Assembly: GCA_902774115.1 (NCBI GenBank)
Contig: CACYHH010000003.1
Span: forward strand, 1 to 63,579
Direction: 5' to 3'
DNA length: 63,579 nt
DNA from: an uncultured Spirochaetales bacterium
GTDB taxonomy: Bacteria; UBP6; UBA1177
Positions 19,138 to 29,181 of the stretch are shown one piece after another. Under the pieces are notes generated by a model, which was not told where the DNA came from, made no database searches, and worked only from the letters and a program-made list of their open reading frames with translations. The translations under genes were made by a program, and so were the position numbers. Every line of letters starts with the position of its first letter. The stretch's first letter is position 1.

Positions 19138-19874
19138 GAGCATGAACTTGCCAAAAATCGAGTTGTTGCAAATTTTGCAACAACTGCTTCCGACGGGAAA
19201 ACATATCAGGTCGATTATTACAATTTAGATGTAATTTTGCAAATTTTGCAACAACTGCTTCCGACGGGAAAACATATCAGGTCGATTATTACAATTTAGA
19301 TGTAATTATTTCAGTTGGTTATCGTGTCAAATCGCTTCGCGGAACACAGTTCAGAATTTGGGCTAACGGAATTCTGAAAGACTATCTTCTTAAAGGTTAT
19401 TCCGTAAATCAAAGGATTGAATGCCTGGAAAATCGTGTCAGTCAAACGGAGGAAAAAATCGATTTTTTTGTCCGCACGTCTTTGCCTCCGGCAGAAGGCA
19501 TATTTTTCAACGGTCAGATTTTTGATGCCTATACATTTGTTTGCGACTTGATCCGCAGCGCGAAAAAACAGATAATATTATTCGATAATTACATCGATGA
19601 CAGCGTTCTGAAAATGCTTGATAAACATGGTGACAGCGTTGATGTCCGCATTCTGACCAAAAGCATTTCTCCGCAGTTGCAGCTAGATATTGAGAAGCAC
19701 AATTCCCAATATTCTCCAATAAAATTAGAAGTTTTCACCAATTCCCACGACCGTTTTCTCTGCATTGATGACACAGTTTATCACATCGGGGCATCACTCA
19801 AAGATCTGGGCAAAAAGTGGTTCGCCTTCAGCAAAATGGAAATCGATACTGAGAGTTTGATCGGAAAGATGTAG
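19138..19874 (+). pseudogene. broken RhuM-family (ORF6N/Fic-associated type) gene
   Basis: The remnant covers the middle and C terminus of a RhuM-type 'virulence' protein. HELAKNRVVANFATTASDGK, then TYQVDYYNLDVIISVGYRV and FRIWANGILKDYLLKGYSVN lead into the C-terminal PLD-like domain from 19482 (QIFDAYTFVCDLIRSAKK, ILFDNYIDDSVL, DRFLCIDDTVYHIGASLKDL). A 71-bp tandem duplication at 19166-19307 shifts the frame and brings a stop within the second copy. Removing one copy restores a continuous reading frame. The N-terminal ~80 residues of the family are absent, with an in-frame stop at 19135. RhuM proteins are typical of mobile and restriction/defence-rich islands; the function is not known. Confidence 0.75.
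19166..19307 (+). repeat. 71-bp tandem duplication disrupting the RhuM remnant
   Basis: Two identical 71-bp units, 19166-19236 and 19237-19307, lie head to tail. The unit begins TTGCAAATTTTGCAACAACT. Because 71 is not a multiple of three, the duplication causes a frameshift. The unit itself starts with a short inverted repeat (TTGCAAATTTTGCAA), which may have promoted replication slippage. Confidence 0.9.
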
Positions 19875-19961: not shown

Positions 19962-21899
19962 TTACCAATTCAATGCGAACTGCAATGTTCCGTCCATCGG
20001 GCTTGCGCCGAAGGAGACGTTGTATTTTTTCTTAACTTCTTTTTCGTCTTTGAATTCGATGCTGTAGAATGTGATTCCGGTTGCAATGAGAGCCACTCCG
20101 ACACCGATTCCGGCAAATCCCAAAGCCATATATGTTTTACGCTGTTTGTCATATTTGTTTGTTTTTTTGCGGTATCTGTCCATGTCGGCCTGGGTTTCGC
20201 TCTGATTGTAGAGATTAAGGGCTTTGTCGCGGTCTTTCTTTGCTTCGTTCATGCCGTAGAGTGAGACTCCGCCGAGTGCACCGATGACTACTCCGGCAAC
20301 GAGTGTGGTTGATCCGGCAATCAGTCTTGTTCTGCGTCCTGCATCGTTAAGTTCTTTTTTGAATTTTTCTTCTTCGGTAAGTTCTTTCGGTTTTTCGGGC
20401 TCTTTGGGCTGTTCCGCGACTTGCGGCTGTGTGTTTGCAACGGGAGCTGCTTCCGCAGCGGCCGCCTGTTCGCCTGAACATGCCGCTTTGCGGCCAAGGT
20501 CGCACGCTTTTTTGAGGTATGCCGCTTTTTCAGCATCGTTTGCTGCGTGTTTAAGACCGTAAGTCTGGCAGTCGAGTGCGGCATTGAGGTCACATCTTTG
20601 TTTTCTTATTTCCTTGATTTTTGTGGTGAGTGCTTCGCTGTATGTTATTTCGTTGTTGTAAACGGTCGCTTTTACGACTTCGGTTGTTCCGAACGAAACG
20701 CCGAATTCGTTAAGATAATTCACTGCGAAAGCGGTTCTGTAGTTTACTGCAAACGACTGATCTGCTTCTACTTTTTTCATTTCAGCCGATTTAGCTTCGT
20801 ATTTCTCAAGTTTTTCGAGGCACGCCCTCCATTCGGCAAGTCTCTGCGTTGCAGTTTGCAGGAACGGGTTTTTCTCGGTGATTTTTGTTATTTCTTCCCA
20901 TGCCACGATCATTGCACCGGGTGTTTTAACGTTTTCAGGCTGCTTTTCCCGATTGACCAGATCTTCAAACATTTTCAGCGCTTTCGGGTCTGCATTCAGG
21001 ATATCCTGTTCGCTTACTGTGCCTAAAACAAAAGGTTTTATTACGTTGACGGGCTCATCCTGAAAGACAAAAGTGCGTTTTGCGAATTCGTCTGCCTTGC
21101 GTTTTTCTTCGGCTGCAAGCCTTGCTTTTTCAGCATCCTGAGCCGCCTTGATTTTGTTGACTTCCTCGCATCCCGGCTGGAATCTAAGTCCGCACGCTTT
21201 TTCAAAAAGCTCGAATCTTTCTTTTTCAGCCTGAGCGGAGACACCGCAGTCGAAGCAGTCTTTGCCCGAATTTTTCTCGCAGCGTTTCTGCTTTGTCTCC
21301 TTTATTTTTGCCTGAAAGTTCGCGTTCTGCGGGATTGCCGTTTTTTCGACAAGATTCAAAGTCTCCTGCGTTCCGAAACTGAGGCCGAATTCCTCAAGAT
21401 GCTGCATGATGAGGTTTGTTTTCTGCTCGTCGGAGAGAAGGGTGCTTGAAAGGAGCATTTTTATCTTGTCCAGACTTGCCTGATGCTTGTTGAAAAGGTC
21501 AACGCAGTTTTTCCATTCGTTAAGCCTTGCCATGGCAGGGTAGAGGAAGGGGTTCTGCTGCGTGATTTTGCTGACTTCTGTCCATGCCTTGATTACAGAA
21601 GCCGGATCTTTGAAAGCGTTCGCCTGTTTTTCGGCATTAACGGCATTTTCATAAAGCTTCAGCAGTTGTGGGTTCAGATTCATCAGGTCGGCATCAGCGA
21701 TTTTCTGCGCTTCGAAAGGCTTAATCGGAATTTCTATGAGCTCTTCTGCGAAACTGTAAGATTTCGCGACAACGGTTTTAGGCTGGGCCGCTTGCTGCTG
21801 CGCTGCAGGCTGCTGTGCTACCGGTTGGTTCTGCGCCGGTGCACCGTAAAGCGACATAACGCTGAAAATCAAAGTGAAAACGAGAAAAAGTTTTTTCAT
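19962..21899 (-). CDS. secreted or membrane-bound protein with a duplicated alpha-helical domain and C-terminal helical hairpin
   Basis: Not a family I can name. The 645-residue product has a signal peptide (LFLVFTLIFSVMSLYGA) and a Gln/Ala/Pro-rich spacer. Two homologous units follow at about residues 55-250 and 285-480. Each has IKPFxxxxIxxxDxxNxxPxxLKxxE, then W-x-E-[VI]-[ST]-KIT-x-x-NPFL, R-L-x-E-W-x-x-C and a Cys-bearing end resembling Sel1/TPR-like caps. A Pro/Glu spacer leads to two hydrophobic helices (AGSTTLVAGVVIGALGG and LGFAGIGVGVALIATG) separated by a charged coiled coil of about 50 residues, like the C-terminal hairpin of myxobacterial TPR proteins. Cysteines are frequent, suggesting an oxidising compartment. 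The IS element sits 75 bp upstream of the start and may have changed its promoter. Confidence 0.6.
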   Translation of the reverse strand: MKKLFLVFTLIFSVMSLYGAPAQNQPVAQQPAAQQQAAQPKTVVAKSYSFAEELIEIPIKPFEAQKIADADLMNLNPQLLKLYENAVNAEKQANAFKDPASVIKAWTEVSKITQQNPFLYPAMARLNEWKNCVDLFNKHQASLDKIKMLLSSTLLSDEQKTNLIMQHLEEFGLSFGTQETLNLVEKTAIPQNANFQAKIKETKQKRCEKNSGKDCFDCGVSAQAEKERFELFEKACGLRFQPGCEEVNKIKAAQDAEKARLAAEEKRKADEFAKRTFVFQDEPVNVIKPFVLGTVSEQDILNADPKALKMFEDLVNREKQPENVKTPGAMIVAWEEITKITEKNPFLQTATQRLAEWRACLEKLEKYEAKSAEMKKVEADQSFAVNYRTAFAVNYLNEFGVSFGTTEVVKATVYNNEITYSEALTTKIKEIRKQRCDLNAALDCQTYGLKHAANDAEKAAYLKKACDLGRKAACSGEQAAAAEAAPVANTQPQVAEQPKEPEKPKELTEEEKFKKELNDAGRRTRLIAGSTTLVAGVVIGALGGVSLYGMNEAKKDRDKALNLYNQSETQADMDRYRKKTNKYDKQRKTYMALGFAGIGVGVALIATGITFYSIEFKDEKEVKKKYNVSFGASPMDGTLQFALNW

Positions 21900-22021
21900 T
21901 TTATCCTCCTAAAAAATTAAAAATTTTCGATCCGCCTGCGGCGGGAAACCTCTTTCCCTCGCCACAATGGAGAGTGTTCTGACCCCCAAAGTTTGGACAC
22001 CCATGAAAAAGAGGTGGAAAA

Positions 22022-22390
22022 ATGGGAGTAAATCATTATCCTTTGGAGTTGCGTGAGCAGGTTTTGACAGAGTATGAGTTAGGCTTAGGCGGTTATCGGA
22101 GATTGGCGAAACGACACGGTCTGACGCGTTATACTGTTAGAGACTGGGTGAAAGCTTATGGTTCGAAAGAAAAGCGAATGGAGAAAAAGAACTTGGGAAC
22201 GAGGAAGAAAAACATCAAAGAAATCAAGAATATGAGCCGTAAAGAGCTTGAAGAGCAGCTTGAACTTTCGATGCTTGCGGCAGATTTCTGGGAGTTTTAC
22301 GCTAACGAGTTAAAAGAGCAGATTAAGGAAGAGAGTAAAAAAAAAGCACAGTTAAAAGTCTCGGAAAATACTGCGAACAAAAAGGAGTAA
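22022..22390 (+). CDS. IS3-family transposase OrfA (helix-turn-helix)
   Basis: A 122-residue N-terminal transposase part that recognises the element ends. HYPLELREQVLTEYELGLGG, then YRRLAKRHGLTRYTVRDWVK, form the Tnp_1-type helix-turn-helix. The region after residue 55 is a basic linker and leucine-zipper-like coiled coil (MSRKELEEQLELSMLAADFW). GAGGTGG lies 6 nt before the ATG. The frame ends 11 bp before the orfB ATG, and an A9 run at 22337-22345 allows a -1 shift to give the OrfAB transposase. Confidence 0.88.
   Translation: MGVNHYPLELREQVLTEYELGLGGYRRLAKRHGLTRYTVRDWVKAYGSKEKRMEKKNLGTRKKNIKEIKNMSRKELEEQLELSMLAADFWEFYANELKEQIKEESKKKAQLKVSENTANKKE
22337..22346 (+). other. predicted -1 programmed frameshift site of the IS
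   Basis: Nine A followed by G read as AAA AAA AAA GCA in orfA. The orfB frame is open from just after an in-frame stop at 22336-22338. It continues as K-K-S-T-V-K-S-L-G-K-Y-C-E-Q-K-G-V-S-V-K-K-M into orfB. A -1 slip on the A-run joins the two, as is established for IS3-family OrfAB production. Confidence 0.75.
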
Positions 22391-22401
22391 GTGTAAAAAA
22401 G

Positions 22402-23319
22402 ATGTGTAAAGCGACGAAAATACCGAGATCATCCTTTTATTACAGGAAAAAATCCGAAGCACTGTGGAAAGAAAAAGACGCTGTAGTTTTGGAAGCGATA
22501 AAGCAGCTTGAGCCGATAGAAATCAAGAAATGCGGAGCGAAACGCAAGTCGCAACTGTTGAAAAGGAAAGGGATGCCTGTGAATCACAAGCGAGTAGCGA
22601 GAATCTGCAAAGAAGCCGGTATAGAGACAACAAACAGAAGAAGGAAATTCCCGAAAAATTATTATAAAACGCAGAAGGCAAACGAAGAAAATCTTCCGAA
22701 AAACGAGCTTAACCGCAATTTCAAAGCAGCCGAACCGTTAAAGAAACTGAGTACGGATGTTTCGTATTTCAAGGTAACGGAAGGCTGGCTTTATTTAAGC
22801 CCGGTTCTGGATCAGCACGACGGATCGGTTCTTATTGCCAGCATGTCACCGACAATGGATCACAGGCTTTCTTGTGATACATTAGTGGAATTGTTAAGAA
22901 AATATAAGTTGAAAGATACTATGATCCATTCTGATCAAGGTGGAATTTACCAGGACAGCACCTACCGCAGCTTTTTTAAAAACAAGAACAATCAAAACGC
23001 AGGTACGGCAACAAAATCCATGATTCCGAAAAATTATGACAAACGATATGAAGAAGCAATAAAACAGTCACAGGAACTGAATCTTGTTCAAAGCATGAGC
23101 CGCAAAGGAAACTGCTGGGACAATGCGTGTATGGAACGGTTTTTCGGGACTGTAAAATCAGAAACAAATTACTATGACACTTTGAAAAACGGCCTTCTCA
23201 GTTATAAGGAAATGGAACGAATGATCCTTGAATTTATTGAATATTATAACAACAGGCGGATTCAGAAAAAACTGAATTGGATGACACCTGTTGAATTTAG
23301 GTCTAAGAGATGTTATTAA
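22402..23319 (+). CDS. IS3-family transposase OrfB (rve integrase core)
   Basis: The DDE catalytic part, 305 residues if started at ATG 22402. The frame is open back to 22339 and is probably mostly made as OrfAB. An HTH_21-like start (ATKIPRSSFYYRK) precedes the core. The first Asp is in STDVSYFK, the second in IHSDQGG, and the Glu in NACMERFFGTVKSE. The spacing between second Asp and Glu is longer than usual: an extra segment of about 30 residues (NKNNQNAGTATKSMIPKNYD and on) is inserted before LVQSMSRKGNCWDNACM. The C terminus YNNRRIQKKLNWMTPVEF is typical. Cut-out-paste-in transposition through a circular intermediate is family knowledge. Confidence 0.92.
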   Translation: MCKATKIPRSSFYYRKKSEALWKEKDAVVLEAIKQLEPIEIKKCGAKRKSQLLKRKGMPVNHKRVARICKEAGIETTNRRRKFPKNYYKTQKANEENLPKNELNRNFKAAEPLKKLSTDVSYFKVTEGWLYLSPVLDQHDGSVLIASMSPTMDHRLSCDTLVELLRKYKLKDTMIHSDQGGIYQDSTYRSFFKNKNNQNAGTATKSMIPKNYDKRYEEAIKQSQELNLVQSMSRKGNCWDNACMERFFGTVKSETNYYDTLKNGLLSYKEMERMILEFIEYYNNRRIQKKLNWMTPVEFRSKRCY

Positions 23320-23373
23320 ACTGTGTCCAAAAAAATGGGGGCAGAACAGAGGAAATAAAAGGGTGAGGTCTGT

Positions 23374-23398
23374 GCCCGCCCCCTTCAAAAGGGCGGGC
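23374..23398. repeat. GC-rich hairpin 3' of DUF1566 lipoprotein A
   Basis: Arms GCCCGCCC and GGGCGGGC flank a short loop about 40 nt beyond the stop of the gene read on the minus strand. On that strand the T-run lies before, not after, the stem, and on the plus strand an A-run follows, so it is not placed like an intrinsic terminator in either direction. The same structure with altered upper stem is at 27329-27352 beyond the paralogous gene. Confidence 0.75.
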
Positions 23399-23436
23399 AA
23401 AAATAACTCGCTGCGCTCGTAAAATGCGGTCACGAC

Positions 23437-23556
23437 CTACCTCACACAACGGACATAGCCGTCGCTGTAAGTCTTACGGCTGCCGTTCACGTATCCGTAG
23501 TAGAAATCCACGAACCATGCGCGATCTGTAGTATCTGACCTAGTAGAGGAAGACCA
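23437..23556 (-). other. candidate DGR variable region, 3' end of lipoprotein A
   Basis: Read on the coding strand from TGGTCTTCC to the TAG. Compared with 23824-23937 and 27402-27518, ten codon columns change at positions 1 and/or 2 while the third base stays C or T, as expected if AAC/AAT codons of a template were adenine-mutagenised. Constant codons TTC, GGA and GTG lie between. The last 21 coding bases before the stop are identical to those of the paralog. Confidence 0.5.
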
Positions 23557-25245
23557 AAACCTGTCGCTCGGCATATCGGGGAAATCAGAAGCAGGGTTGT
23601 ACTTTTCGTAATTAACAAGAGATGCAAGCTCGTTTTTATTAGGCAGTCTCCAGCGGGAAGAGTCTGCATAAGTCAAAGAGCCACAATAATTAATTGCCTC
23701 CTGCCATGTTTTTTTATCCGTTTCATAAGTTTTCTGCCAGATGAGACCCGTTTTAGTGTCTGTTACAATAACATCACCGTTTACGGTCGAAGAATTGAAT
23801 GTGCTGTTCGGTAAACTTTCACCTCTCACACAACGGACACTGCTGTAGTCAGTCTTAGAGTAGCTGTACACGGCTCCGTAGAAGAAATCAACGACCCATG
23901 CGCGATCTGTAGTATCTGACCTAGTAGAGGAAGACCAGAAGTTGTTTGCTGTATCAGGAAAATATGTCGAGTCTATAGCAGGAGAGGATTGGCCGTTGTC
24001 AACAATAGAGAGTAATTCAAAGGGTGTCGGAAGTCTCCAGTCGGAATATCCGCCATAAGTCAAGTTGCTGCAATATGAACCGGCATCTTCCCATGTGTAT
24101 GCTTCAGTAGAAATTGTCTGCTGCCACATCAGACCTGTGTTGTTGTCAAGAACGACTTTTTCTGATTCGATGACACTCAGCAGCGTGAAACTTTGCGGTG
24201 TGCATTCACCAAGATGCGCTAGGTGTCCATCATCACCGCTTTCATATTTTTCTTGTTGACCGGTGCAGATATTGCCGAAAAGTGGAGCTTTGCATTTTTC
24301 GGAATAACCACCCCAGAAATAATTTTCTTTACACTTGTAAAAGCATTTGTTTGAATTCGGGGCTTCGGGTTCTTCAGAGTGAATCAGTGCAGTTGAGGAA
24401 GGTGTCCACAATACTTGAATCCAATCCCAGGTCTGGGTTATTTGGGAAATGGTGTTCCACTCGGCATTTTCCGGAAGTCCTGTGCATTTTGCCTGTCTCG
24501 TTGTTATTTCCTTTCTGACACAGCGGACATCAAAGTTTTCGTCAACATTTTTAGAAGCTGCTTTTCCGCCATTGTAAAAATCAACGCCGTAGCCTTGTCC
24601 GGCAGCCCAAAAGAAGGCAATATCACCGAATTTGCTGCATGAACCGCCAAGGTCGCAGAATGTAGAATGAAGTGTCTGTAAAGCTGCGATAGTCGGGACC
24701 AGCCAGTCGCTGAAGCCGCCTTCGTTCAGGTTGTTGCAATAGTCCATAGCGTCGATCCAGCGCATTCTGTAAGGTGCTTTTTCAGACCAGATCAGATTTG
24801 TATTTTCGGAATCAGAATTTAATGCCTGAGAGTCGATACACGGCATCGCGCTTGTTGTGCTGCATTCAGGAAGATTGGACGGGTTTTCATTTATCGGTTC
24901 GGGCTCTTCAGAATCAGGTACGGAATCACTGTCGTCCGACGGCGTGTTGCTGCCGTCCGGCTGAGAATCGCCGCTGTCTGAATCTGAATCGGATCCGGTG
25001 TCGGTCTTTCCGTCACTGTCTGAGTCTGTTTTGTCTGAATCGTGGATCGGATTTTCGGGATCTTCAACGCAGACATTGTTTTCTGTGTCGCAGAGAAGTC
25101 CTTTGTCACAGGTTTTGTTCGGGTAGCATTCTCCGCCCAGCTTTCCGAAGTCTGATACTGAACTGCTGTCTGACGACGAACCGCCGCAGCTCACAAAAAA
25201 TGCGATGACCGCAAACATGAACGCTGTAAAAAGATGTTTTTTCAT
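23437..25245 (-). CDS. DUF1566/Lcl-domain lipoprotein A with three repeated domains and a variable-region-like 3' end
   Basis: A surface lipoprotein of about 603 residues. The lipobox is in FFVSCGG. Residues about 20-60 form a Cys-rich module (FGKLGGECYPNKTCDKGLLC) shared with the paralog at 27402-28775. An acidic DSD-rich stalk follows. Three DUF1566/Fibro-slime-like (C-type-lectin-like) units come next, each with W-x-x-A-x-x-Y-C-x-x-L, G-x-SDWRLP and a VRCVR end. A non-DUF1566 insert between the first two carries C-T-G-L-P-E-N-A-E-W-N, also found in the paralog. The last two units end in near-identical WSSSTRSDTTDRAW followed by highly divergent codons. GGAG precedes two adjacent ATGs (25248, 25245); the second gives better spacing. 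Ligand binding is the usual role of such folds; the ligand is unknown. Confidence 0.82.
   Translation of the reverse strand: MKKHLFTAFMFAVIAFFVSCGGSSSDSSSVSDFGKLGGECYPNKTCDKGLLCDTENNVCVEDPENPIHDSDKTDSDSDGKTDTGSDSDSDSGDSQPDGSNTPSDDSDSVPDSEEPEPINENPSNLPECSTTSAMPCIDSQALNSDSENTNLIWSEKAPYRMRWIDAMDYCNNLNEGGFSDWLVPTIAALQTLHSTFCDLGGSCSKFGDIAFFWAAGQGYGVDFYNGGKAASKNVDENFDVRCVRKEITTRQAKCTGLPENAEWNTISQITQTWDWIQVLWTPSSTALIHSEEPEAPNSNKCFYKCKENYFWGGYSEKCKAPLFGNICTGQQEKYESGDDGHLAHLGECTPQSFTLLSVIESEKVVLDNNTGLMWQQTISTEAYTWEDAGSYCSNLTYGGYSDWRLPTPFELLSIVDNGQSSPAIDSTYFPDTANNFWSSSTRSDTTDRAWVVDFFYGAVYSYSKTDYSSVRCVRGESLPNSTFNSSTVNGDVIVTDTKTGLIWQKTYETDKKTWQEAINYCGSLTYADSSRWRLPNKNELASLVNYEKYNPASDFPDMPSDRFWSSSTRSDTTDRAWFVDFYYGYVNGSRKTYSDGYVRCVR
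23824..23937 (-). other. internal variable-region-like copy in lipoprotein A
   Basis: The middle DUF1566 unit has the same scaffold as the 3' end of the gene. A 42-bp block (23896-23937) is identical to 23515-23556; beyond it, towards VRCVR, the codons diverge at first and second positions with third bases kept. It is not followed by the GC-rich hairpin, so it would be a donor or relic rather than an active target. Confidence 0.5.
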
Positions 25246-25293
25246 CATTAACTCCATAAAAAAGTTGGTAATAAGTTATCTTTGTTCCTATTT

Positions 25294-27237
25294 TTATTTC
25301 CCGTTTTTCTCTGTTTTTCCCAAACGACCGCTCAACATCCATTCCAGAACTTCGATCTGATGATACAAGCCGTCGATATCTGACGGATCTATGTGGTTGG
25401 CATAGCTTCTATAAACCATATCGCATTGAACTGCATACCTTCCCGCATATTCATCCGCCAGTCCAACCTTTACCGATTCTCCTGTGGATGTTGACGTGAT
25501 CTTGGCTGTTCTTGCGACAAAATCAGCCTCTATGACAGCATTATCGAAGACAAGTCTTGCGTGTTGCTTTTTTGCAGGATGTTTTTCATCAAAACCTTTA
25601 ATAAGATTCAGTTCTATTTTTTCGCCCTGCGAGCCCAAAGCGAATAAATTGATCCTTGAGTTTGCAGTATCGGTCGGATCAGGATTATTGAACTTCCGAA
25701 CATCCCATGTGTCTGGAAGGCCGGCAAAAAGTGATGCAATCAGGCAGTGATGAATAAATGTTTCAATAAGCTGTCCGCCTGCAGGAAGATGCCTTTCGTC
25801 TTTGTCTTCAACAAGTTCAACCTCAATACTTTTCAAGTGCCCGGCAGTCAGAAACATCTGATAATACTTTTCTAAGATTCCGGTATCTTTAAAATATTTC
25901 AGGTAAAAGTCCCGCGGTCTTGCCAGAAATGTCAGCGGAAGTGCCTTTTCAAGGATATAATAGCTCAAAAAGAAAACCTTTTTTCTGTTTTCGGAAGAAA
26001 TGAAATCTTTCAACAAAATCAGGTCATTTATGTTTGAAACTATCGGCTTTTCCATTGCGATGAAACCTGCCCGCTTTTTCAGTAGTTCCAGATAATACAG
26101 ATGAGTATCTGAAGGGGTTTCTATCCATACGACTACATCTTTGAAGTCCTCTTCCTTTGTTTCTACTATCAGACTGAAGATGTTTTTTATTTCGGTTTCA
26201 CCAGTCAAATTCCACTGTTCTGGAATATTCTCAATGGTTTCTCTGCTGTAGATGCGGATCTTTTTATTCTGCCCGATATTTTTTATTCTCTGCATGAGGG
26301 CTGGCATAAGGAGATTGCGGACAGCATTGCCTGCGCCTATGATCATTGTGGATGGATTAGCAGGTTTCACTTTTTCGTCAGGGAACGAACGGATGATCAT
26401 GCTTATTACGATCGCGGAATACAGGAATCCGAATATCCCCGGAATGATCATGTTCTCATCAGCCTGCCCCAGCAAAACAGGCATTACTTTGCACCATGTA
26501 ATATTGGTATTTGCATTGATATTCATCAGACAAGCGGCGTATGCAACGGCTTGCAGCGGGATCATAACCAGAATGAGAGGCAGGTGCTCAAGCACATGAT
26601 AGATTTCATATTCCTTTTCAAAGAATCTTCTGAAAACGCCATAATACAGAATCCAAGTGGTTGATTCTATTAAGAAATAAGCATTCAGTCCATACACGAA
26701 AGAGCAATTAAGCCCCATAGAAATCTGAATAATCAGAAAAACAGCCCATACAGCTATGTAAGATTCCTGCAGAAGAGGAGGAATATTGATGTGTTTTATA
26801 TCCGGTTCCGTCGGATCTTTATATGTTTTCCTGTAAATAAATTTGCAAAACTGCAATACTGAAGCCCTGCGCAATAGACATATCAACCAGGACAAAACAG
26901 AATTGACAATGGAAATGCCGCCCTGCCAGTTATAGCTGGATTTCTTCGGCTTGGCTGCAAGAATTTCTAAGAGATTTGAAAGAGACTCCTTGCCTTTTAA
27001 AGCAATTTCGTTGAAACTGCATAACGATAACCGTATTGCCGCAAGCAAAAACAGAACTTCTGCTAGCGCAAATAACCACAAACAGGTTTGTTTAGAATCC
27101 AATTTTGTTCCGCAAAGACACAACAAGAGATGCAGAGTTGCCATAGATAGAACAAAGTATAAAAATCCTGCTGTTAAGCCGAATACAATCGATCTGCTTC
27201 TTGATTTTCTTACCCACTCGATGAAGTTTTTCGGCAT
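25294..27237 (-). CDS. multipass membrane domain fused to a Gfo/Idh/MocA-like oxidoreductase domain
   Basis: An unusual 647-residue fusion. Residues 1-320 contain about seven or eight hydrophobic segments (FGLTAGFLYFVLSMATLHLL and WAVFLIIQISMGLNCSFVYG among them). From about residue 325 a Rossmann fold begins with TMIIGAGNAVRNLLMPALMQ. It continues with VVVWIETPSDTHLYYLELLK and the EKP motif in GFIAMEKPIVSN, whose Lys is catalytic in Gfo/Idh enzymes. The C-terminal alpha/beta part follows (LPAGGQLIETFIHHCLIASL). The glycine motif is G-x-G-N-A rather than G-x-G-x-x-G, so cofactor binding may be altered. It lies between two paralogous lipoprotein genes on the same strand, 48 bp upstream of one and 164 bp downstream of the other. 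The role is unknown; sugar or cofactor chemistry at the membrane is a guess. Confidence 0.65.
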   Translation of the reverse strand: MPKNFIEWVRKSRSRSIVFGLTAGFLYFVLSMATLHLLLCLCGTKLDSKQTCLWLFALAEVLFLLAAIRLSLCSFNEIALKGKESLSNLLEILAAKPKKSSYNWQGGISIVNSVLSWLICLLRRASVLQFCKFIYRKTYKDPTEPDIKHINIPPLLQESYIAVWAVFLIIQISMGLNCSFVYGLNAYFLIESTTWILYYGVFRRFFEKEYEIYHVLEHLPLILVMIPLQAVAYAACLMNINANTNITWCKVMPVLLGQADENMIIPGIFGFLYSAIVISMIIRSFPDEKVKPANPSTMIIGAGNAVRNLLMPALMQRIKNIGQNKKIRIYSRETIENIPEQWNLTGETEIKNIFSLIVETKEEDFKDVVVWIETPSDTHLYYLELLKKRAGFIAMEKPIVSNINDLILLKDFISSENRKKVFFLSYYILEKALPLTFLARPRDFYLKYFKDTGILEKYYQMFLTAGHLKSIEVELVEDKDERHLPAGGQLIETFIHHCLIASLFAGLPDTWDVRKFNNPDPTDTANSRINLFALGSQGEKIELNLIKGFDEKHPAKKQHARLVFDNAVIEADFVARTAKITSTSTGESVKVGLADEYAGRYAVQCDMVYRSYANHIDPSDIDGLYHQIEVLEWMLSGRLGKTEKNGK

Positions 27238-27304
27238 TATCGGATATCTCCCAAGCAGAAATTTTTCATTTTTTACCTCTACAAAAAGAGTTCAAAAATT
27301 TTGA

Positions 27305-27320
27305 CCCGCCTGATGGCGGG
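27305..27320. repeat. small perfect hairpin beside the 27.3-kb GC-rich hairpin
   Basis: CCCGCC-TGAT-GGCGGG is a 6-bp stem with a tetraloop. A related CCGCC/GGCGG hairpin preceded by the same AAAATTTT lies at 21931-21946, now separated from the hairpin at 23374 by the IS. This shows that both lipoprotein genes once had matching 3' flanks. Confidence 0.6.
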
Positions 27321-27328
27321 AAGAGTGT

Positions 27329-27352
27329 GCCCGCACCTTCAAAAGGGCGGGC
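27329..27352. repeat. GC-rich hairpin 3' of DUF1566 lipoprotein B
   Basis: Coding-strand order is GCCCG-C-CCTT-TTG-AAGG-TG-CGGGC, a hairpin about 50 nt past the stop codon. It matches the one at 23374-23398, with changes that keep the stem. Flanking shared phrases include GTGACCGCATTTT and an AGCGCAGCG element. No T-run follows in the gene's direction. Confidence 0.75.
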
Positions 27353-27401
27353 AAAAGTGCTCGCTTACGCTGCGCTAAAAATGCGGTCACCACTCTTAAC
27401 C

Positions 27402-27518
27402 CTACCTCACACAACGGACATAGCCGTTGTTAGTCTTATCGTTGTAGCCCACGAGTCCGTAGCTGAAATTCACGGACCATGCGTAACCTGTATCATACGA
27501 TAAAGTTGAGGAAGACCA
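27402..27518 (-). other. candidate DGR variable region, 3' end of lipoprotein B
   Basis: Third member of the comparison with 23437-23556 and 23824-23937. Its codons after GCA TGG are TCC GTG AAT TTC AGC, where the others read TTC GTG GAT TTC TAC and GTC GTT GAT TTC TTC. It is one codon shorter than the 3' copy of lipoprotein A near the end but has the same final GTCCGTTGTGTGAGGTAG. Confidence 0.5.
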
Positions 27519-28775
27519 GAGACGAATACTATCACCCAACTTGCTGTAACGCCCGTCGCTGTATGAGGTGCCATAACTTGAACAGTATATATCGCTTGAA
27601 TTTTGAGTGCCTGTCTGTGTGCAGGTTGAACACATCCAACAATCTTTCCTAGACAAACAGCCGTTTGTGTTGCTGACTTTACATCTGTTTGTTACTCTGT
27701 CTGCATTGATCAGGAGTGTTTTAAGCTCGTCTATAGTCGGCAGATGCCAATCAGAATAGCCGCCTTCTGTCAAATTGTTACAGTATGATTTTGCGTCGTT
27801 CCAAGTTTTTTCGCTTGATGCTTTAGCTGACCAGGTATAGCCAGTTGATGAATCTGTGCACGGTGTCGATGAAGTCGAACTGCACTCGGGAAAACATGAA
27901 GAGCCATTCCACACATAATAAAGTTCGCATTTATAGCGGCAATACTGCGTGCTGGCACTTGTGTTATATTCTGATTCGTTCGACGGAGTCCACTCAGAGC
28001 CGTTATAAGTCTGTATGATGCTTGAAACGGTGTTCCAGACTGCATTTTCAGGTTTTGGAGTACAGTCTATCTCTCTAGTCATTACAACACATGAAGTGCC
28101 GTTCCATTCGTAGCCTGGATTGCATCCGCAGACATAACTTGTGCTGTCTATTATACAGGTTCCTTTCGAATTTGGCATATTTGTGCACGGATTCGGGTTG
28201 CACGGATCTGACGGCTGCACGCACTGCGAACCATCCCAAGTGTAACCGGACACACATTTGAATCGGCATTCATTCTCGCTTCCTTCAAAATTGAATGAGG
28301 CAACAGGTGAGGGAACCCACTTTTCGCCGTCCCATCTCTGCGTAATGCTTGATACCGTATTCCATTCCGCGTTCTCAGGCAGGCCTGTGCAATCCTGAAC
28401 GCGGATCTCACCCTCTGTTTCTCCGCTATCGGTTGTGTCCGGATCAATAGTGTCGCCGTCGTCAGCGGAATCATTGTCATTTTCAGGCAAAGTGTCAGTT
28501 TTGTCATCATTCTGTTCATATGCTGTATCTACATTGTCATTTGTCTGTTCAGACGATGTGTCTGAATCTTGAACCGGATTTTCAGGATCTTCAACACAGA
28601 TATTGTTTTCCGTGTCGCAGAGAAATCCTTCGTCACAGGTTTCATTCGGGTAGCATTCGCCGCCCAGTTTTCCGAAGTTTGATACTGAACTGCCGCCTGA
28701 GGACGAATTGCCTCCGCACGAAATCATCAAAGCCATCGCTGCAAGAACAGCAAAAAACACAAAAATTTTTTTCAT
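27402..28775 (-). CDS. DUF1566/Lcl-domain lipoprotein B with a variable-region-like 3' end
   Basis: A surface lipoprotein of about 457 residues and paralog of the 23437-25245 product. The lipobox is in LMISCGG. The Cys-rich module FGKLGGECYPNETCDEGFLC and the following VEDPENPVQDSD stalk match closely. The middle region has two C-T-G/P-x-P-E-N-A-x-W-N-T-V-S-S-I modules and an EGF-like unit (CNPNPCTNMPNSKGTC, GYEWNGTSC). One C-terminal DUF1566 unit follows (TWNDAKSYCNNLTEGGYSDW, HLPTIDELKTL), ending in WSSSTLSYDTGYAW and VRCVR. GGAGG lies 5 nt before the ATG at 28775; the 28787 start is only 12 bp further up and lacks such a site. The C-type-lectin-like end suggests a binding surface. A heptamer array lies 180 bp upstream. 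Confidence 0.82.
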   Translation of the reverse strand: MKKIFVFFAVLAAMALMISCGGNSSSGGSSVSNFGKLGGECYPNETCDEGFLCDTENNICVEDPENPVQDSDTSSEQTNDNVDTAYEQNDDKTDTLPENDNDSADDGDTIDPDTTDSGETEGEIRVQDCTGLPENAEWNTVSSITQRWDGEKWVPSPVASFNFEGSENECRFKCVSGYTWDGSQCVQPSDPCNPNPCTNMPNSKGTCIIDSTSYVCGCNPGYEWNGTSCVVMTREIDCTPKPENAVWNTVSSIIQTYNGSEWTPSNESEYNTSASTQYCRYKCELYYVWNGSSCFPECSSTSSTPCTDSSTGYTWSAKASSEKTWNDAKSYCNNLTEGGYSDWHLPTIDELKTLLINADRVTNRCKVSNTNGCLSRKDCWMCSTCTQTGTQNSSDIYCSSYGTSYSDGRYSKLGDSIRLWSSSTLSYDTGYAWSVNFSYGLVGYNDKTNNGYVRCVR

Positions 28776-28803
28776 TTTTTCCTCCATTTTGTTGTGCGGC
28801 GCG

Positions 28804-28954: not shown

Positions 28955-29054
28955 GATTCCTGATTCCTGATTCCTGATTCCTGATTCCTGATTCCTGATT
29001 CCTGATTCCTGATTCCTGATTCCTGATTCCTGATTCCTGATTCCTGATTCCTGA
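28955..29054. repeat. heptamer tandem array (TGATTCC)n, about 14 units
   Basis: About 100 bp of perfect GATTCCT/TGATTCC repeats, 180 bp upstream of lipoprotein B (read on the minus strand as GGAATCA). A 7-bp unit changes both reading frame and helical phase on slippage. The array is intergenic, so any effect would be on promoter or spacing rather than on coding. Confidence 0.95.
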
Positions 29055-29181
29055 TAATTTTATTCACTATTAACAAAACAAATCTCCTTAAAAATCGAAC
29101 GCTAAGTATAGTATCGAATTGAAACAGAAAGGCAAGTTTTTGCTTCGACAAGCTCAGCAACCGAAGCCCTCTCAGTCGCAG

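Follow-up and report, generated by a model that had tools for sequence, protein, structure and literature searches.

DUF1566 (Lcl_C) is reported to be the commonest Pfam domain among the targets of diversity-generating retroelements (DGRs) (PMC6642488), and variable regions (VRs) lying remote from the rest of such an element have already been described (PMC10907252, PMC8144416). A survey approach that proceeds from the reverse transcriptase (RT) would, by its own statement, not detect remote targets of this kind (PMC8144416). No paper on DGRs in UBP6 was found in the literature searched. The stretch of DNA considered here (the window) comprises positions 1-63579 of a 296-kb contig from an uncultured UBP6 bacterium, whose genome, referred to as G000, is assembled to 2.51 Mb in 15 contigs and is 99.4% complete. 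The window very probably holds DGR target genes whose VRs were overwritten from a template repeat (TR) by an RT-Avd complex of the type found in sister species, i.e., other species of the same genus known from ruminant-gut MAGs (yak, goat, and reindeer), each represented by a single genome. The unusual point is that a near-complete genome carries fresh targets with no detectable core.

Lectin-like lipoproteins and their variable ends

Two genes on the minus strand encode proteins that look like lipoproteins, as judged by a signal with a cysteine, and both are assigned as DGR targets. The first (23437..25257) is a 606-aa open reading frame with three Lcl_C (PF07603) domains (Pfam, 6.5e-78), and the second (27402..28787) is a 461-aa open reading frame with a C-terminal Lcl_C domain (Pfam, 3.1e-20). 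The lectin-like Lcl_C domain has undergone a very large expansion in G000, with approximately 150 domain matches in 2.5 Mb, some of them within open frames of 2600-2800 aa. A 647-aa gene (25294-27237) sits between both target genes; searches of Pfam and NCBIfam left it unmatched, and none of the sister genomes searched contained a relative or ortholog of it.

The first-pass annotation had noticed three copies of one scaffold in these genes, and all three are confirmed where it had placed them, on the minus strand. They are c1, the C-terminal VR of the 606-aa gene (23437..23558); c2, a VR internal to the same gene (23825..23937); and c3, the C-terminal VR of the 461-aa gene (27402..27518). One codon more is present in c1 than in c2, c3, and the TR (TAC AGC GAC GGC TAT versus four codons), and c1 and c2 are exactly identical over approximately 42 bp, from TGGTCTTCC to GCATGG, rewritten adenine sites included. 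A model of the c1 domain built from a six-sequence alignment (mean pLDDT 73, pTM 0.67) is closest to the C-terminal domain of Legionella Lcl and to C-type lectins (E 1.4e-3, TM about 0.5). The Pfam assignment to Lcl_C and this model, whose scores are modest, point to a C-type-lectin-like fold, which, like an Ig-like one, is expected of a DGR target domain.

Short signals follow the two terminal VRs on the same strand. The element GACCGCA occurs after c1 (23425..23431), where it is a candidate IMH counterpart, and after c3 (27382..27388), and TRs have GAACGCA where most terminal VRs have GACCGCA. A GC-rich inverted repeat, GCCCGCC...GGCGGGC, which may form a hairpin, lies downstream of c1 (23374..23398) and c3 (27329..27352) and is conserved 3' of many sister VRs. 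The GACCGCA/GAACGCA element and the hairpin resemble the IMH and the hairpin that known DGRs possess and may act in the same way. The combination of a VR at the gene's 3' end, an IMH-like end, and a downstream hairpin is thus seen for c1 and c3 and not for c2, which has neither hairpin nor IMH-like element. The hairpin is absent from the oldest-looking VRs (10-12 non-adenine differences) and also from some fresh ones in G008, G010, and G012 (C67:20123), so that its role is uncertain and the link between its loss and age is only a trend.

Beyond the c1 signals lies an IS3-type insertion (21975..23348, plus strand) with two ORFs, an rve domain, and 26-bp imperfect terminal repeats. It lies approximately 25 bp past the c1 hairpin, the orthologous place in G012 has no IS, and it is a separate insertion outside the DGR. 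It is followed by a 645-aa gene (19962..21899, minus strand) that serves as a synteny anchor, since its ortholog in G012 is 94% identical and stands directly after a VR there. The idea that the IS3-type element deleted a core next to c1 was rejected, because in the G012 ortholog the 645-aa gene comes immediately after the VR, and no IS or core separates the two. Two repeats were observed elsewhere in the window, namely a perfect 71-bp tandem duplication (19166-19307), also matched by the end of contig C15, and a (GATTCCT)14 array (28955-29055).

Template and core in sister species

Complete cassettes in the order Lcl_C target-Avd-TR-RT are present in G009 (two), G012 (two), G014, G017, and G018. 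Each comprises an Lcl_C target, an Avd-like protein of approximately 128 aa, a TR rich in AAC and AAT, and an RT of approximately 460-490 aa. The RT carries GLPIGNLTSQ and YVDD motifs, and among solved structures its closest relative in sequence is 8ub7, annotated 'Reverse transcriptase' (E 2e-43), which we take to be the DGR RT of the Bordetella phage. In cis TR-VR pairs, differences are confined, or very nearly confined, to template adenines; with an RT related to a known DGR RT and a TR-VR pair in cis, the sister cassettes pass as DGRs. The Avd-like protein is less distinct: its similarity is weak, with an Avd family match below the cut-off, and in the cellular cassettes it gave no Pfam match and no solved relative. 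Eight sister genomes gave Avd matches, of which the one in G006 is a broken fragment.

Several other elements were encountered alongside these cassettes. Within the RT genes L099 and L098, an in-frame stretch of variable sequence (PTALPNKGEPRKNLPLTQGEVSRSDGEG and the like) has the appearance of a dispersed repeat. A second, diverged type of DGR, likewise with an Lcl_C target, occurs in G005 (L106, C44) and G010 (L104, C25), the former adjoining a phage tail-like gene. The RT of G016 was rejected as a DGR RT, being a DRT-type (UG26) enzyme. A phage origin of the core was rejected as well, because a search of viral contigs with the RT patterns gave no match. The VR pattern hit two IMG/VR contigs (L204, L205), whose Lcl_C genes, though VR-like in codon pattern, are different ones and do not belong to the same system.

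The TR of G009 on contig C46 (TGGTCTTCCTCTACTAAATCAGATAATACAGATAACGCATGGAACGTG) served as the reference for c1, c2, and c3. Against it, c1 mismatches at 20/46 adenines and at none of 70 other positions (p = 4e-10), c2 at 22/45 and 1/69 (p = 4e-10), and c3 at 19/46 and 2/70 (p = 2e-7). By these alignments, the differences of c1, c2, and c3 from the TR are confined to template adenines in the manner expected of DGR targets. Three further VRs of G000 show the same tendency: C3:183639, compared with the C14 TR of G009, has 22/45 adenine and 4/71 non-adenine mismatches, C6:34653 has 21/46 and 7/70, and C8:41769 has 20/46 and 11/69. If the sister TRs may stand in for the missing one, the rising non-adenine count of 0 (c1), 1 (c2), 2 (c3), 4, 7, and 11 would reflect ageing since the last rewriting. 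When 16 VRs are pooled, 322/734 adenine sites (44%) are changed versus 58/1115 others (5%), and A to G is the commonest change (164 G, 113 T, and 45 C), in agreement with the A-to-G bias reported for DGRs (PMC6642488).

The comparison of the c1 and c2 domains provides an internal control. Across the 72 codons that precede the VR, the two domains differ at 27, 24, and 43 sites in codon positions 1, 2, and 3, respectively, i.e., mostly at third positions, so that ordinary divergence fails to explain the VRs, whose 38 codons differ at 8, 6, and 4 sites, part of the 4 third-position differences coming from an alignment gap and the differing gene end. Earlier observations on the codon pattern largely hold. 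The variable NNC/NNT columns exist as described and line up with AAC/AAT codons in the sister TRs, and the proposal of adenine-specific mutagenesis, as in DGR targets, is borne out by the 70/70 agreement of c1 with the TR at non-adenine positions. The GTG codon described as invariant is GTT in c2 after the first variable codon. Constant TAC, AAG, and ACT codons had been counted against the proposal, and of these only AAG is upheld as constant, being AAG in the TR and unchanged in 16/16 VRs tallied. The TAC columns are AAC in the TR and therefore represent rewritten sites that share a residue, and ACT varies in sister VRs.

Targets in an assembly with no detectable core

No RVT_1 was found in G000 and no Avd, by searches that were positive in sister genomes, and DNA searches of G000 with the VR or TR returned only coding VR-like copies. 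Because the same RT, TR, and Avd searches succeed in sister genomes, they are sensitive enough. Partial RT, Avd, or TR sequences were not found either, so that all three components of a complete cassette are missing from the G000 assembly. The first-pass annotation had seen no RT, Avd, or template in the window, and this extends to the whole assembly; the DGR-type RT and AAC/AAT template of approximately 110 bp that it proposed to look for were found in the sister species and not in the G000 assembly. It had also named what would speak against its reading, namely a complete genome devoid of the retroelement together with variation across third codon positions. The former is what the 99.4%-complete MAG displays, and the latter is clearly not observed. 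DGR-diversified variable regions are supported, whereas an intact DGR in G000 is not shown.

The genomic positions of the sister cassettes vary. One cassette in G012 and one in G009 adjoin an HPF gene (the HPF-folC site). In G000 this site holds no cassette; it lies mid-contig, is intact, and its flanks, 89-91% identical to G012, run on. It is likewise cassette-free in G014, G018, G010, G017, and G008. The G014 cassette is located at a different site, with long segments 93-98% identical to a G012 cassette. At the G012 ortholog of the c1 locus (uvrC to the 645-aa gene), VRs are present with no core beside them, which indicates that action at a distance is normal in the genus. Remote VRs in G012 and differing cassette sites together imply that targets are often remote and that cores change place. 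In G006, the broken, interrupted Avd fragment adjoins a VR, suggesting that cores decay.

Proposed mechanism and its alternatives

In the favoured explanation, a sister-type RT-Avd complex would copy TR RNA into cDNA, placing random bases at template adenines, and this cDNA would replace the 3' ends of several genes for Lcl_C lipoproteins. Each surface protein would thereby display its own residue set on its C-type-lectin-like tip, and the varied surface presumably binds ligands. The targets were probably rewritten in trans, by a core that lay at a different locus. The 42 bp common to c1 and c2, which include rewritten adenine sites, suggest conversion from c1; the 5' half of c2 may have arisen in this way, with the 3' half of c1 rewritten afterwards. 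Some points count against this explanation. One is that G000 has no core from which activity and the exact template could be read. In addition, c1 carries a three-base insertion relative to the sister TRs, and c2, an internal VR, is followed by neither the 3' element nor the hairpin.

Two processes that dispense with retrotranscription were weighed. Ordinary evolution of lectin-fold repeats would favour N, D, S, Y, G, and F at the positions that face the ligand, with codons tending to end in C or T, and the Lcl_C domains of G000 outside these VRs do vary in the same terminal loops. Against it, synonymous sites and invariant codons are frozen within the VR (0/70 in c1) versus 43/72 third positions changed upstream, and the sites that vary fall on the adenines of a TR that was located independently and is linked to an RT. 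The chance of this origin is negligible, and the match to the TR has refuted it already; only if that match were an artefact would it come back into play. Gene conversion among the approximately 150 Lcl_C paralogues could instead reshuffle existing variants, as the 42 bp shared by c1 and c2, in domains that are old duplicates, would allow. Linked non-adenine differences should travel along with such tracts, yet few or none are seen, and a DNA search of G000 gave no donor set; as the general source of the variation, it is very improbable.

The whereabouts of the core are harder to settle. It may be present and active in the species and absent from the short-read MAG because repeats or strain variation broke the assembly, leaving it on an unbinned contig. 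Contigs that share 99-mers at their ends, as k-mer assemblies with unbinned repeats typically do, approximately ten contig ends without a partner, and the location of 6/7 sister cassettes on contigs of <41 kb or at contig edges agree with such a gap, as does the lack of decay at non-adenine sites of c1. The 99.4% completeness, the intact and empty state of the known cassette site, the assembly of c1, c2, and c3 within a single 296-kb contig, and the failure to find even a partial RT, Avd, or TR argue the other way, and a missing contig is a serious possibility that falls short of being probable. Rather probable, in contrast, is that the core has disappeared and left the VRs as frozen relics, or that the targets arrived already diversified by interspecies gene transfer. 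A pristine VR exists in G008, which is 98% complete and has no RT, and the broken Avd of G006 fits loss. A 1213-bp target block is 98.2% identical between contig C1 of G008 (L178) and contig C1 of G010 (L179), with VRs one base apart and flanks at 85-88%; identity above that of the flanks indicates that target genes move between species in recent exchange. Moreover, one G012 VR fits the G009-type TR at 70/70 non-adenine sites, and the TRs found in G012 itself differ from that type. Set against loss or transfer, the absence of any non-adenine difference in c1 demands that the event be recent, and no boundaries of a transferred block were established around c1 or c3. A broader and more tentative proposal, which we hold to be rather unlikely, is that the DGR core is itinerant in the genus: cassettes would gain and lose sites and pass between species, a standing Lcl_C family could be rewritten by any visiting core with the common template, and genomes like G000 would be between visits, with a frozen repertoire.

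Significance and comparison with known systems

Targeted protein diversification is hereby extended to a little-known, uncultured gut lineage, and the window offers a case of target genes recognisable when their retroelement is missing. Should the core come and go, RT-first surveys would miss diversified genes, and the genus would offer targets at successive stages (active, recently stopped, and decayed) as a natural series for dating and for testing how DGRs recognise remote targets.

The DGR of Bordetella phage BPP-1 shares with the sister cassettes the order target-Avd-TR-RT and 3' ends of VR and TR that differ as IMH and IMH*. Unlike it, the present system has cellular lipoprotein targets, many remote VRs, and weak Avd similarity. 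The Legionella Lcl C-terminal domain (8q4e) is the nearest solved counterpart of the c1 domain in fold and sequence, at a modest match (TM about 0.5). DGRs with DUF1566 (Lcl_C) targets (PMC6642488, PMC4159848) have the same target domain, A-to-N pattern, and several VRs per TR, and differ in that the G000 targets occur without detectable RT, TR, or Avd, the core being known only from sister species. In Thiohalocapsa PB-PSB1, with its incomplete DGR loci and remote targets (PMC10907252), VRs likewise fit a distant TR at all non-adenine sites and are explained in trans; there, however, the TR resides in the same genome, whereas a TR for the G000 targets turned up only in sister species. Neither DUF1566 targets nor remote VRs are new; it is the core-less set of fresh targets that stands out.
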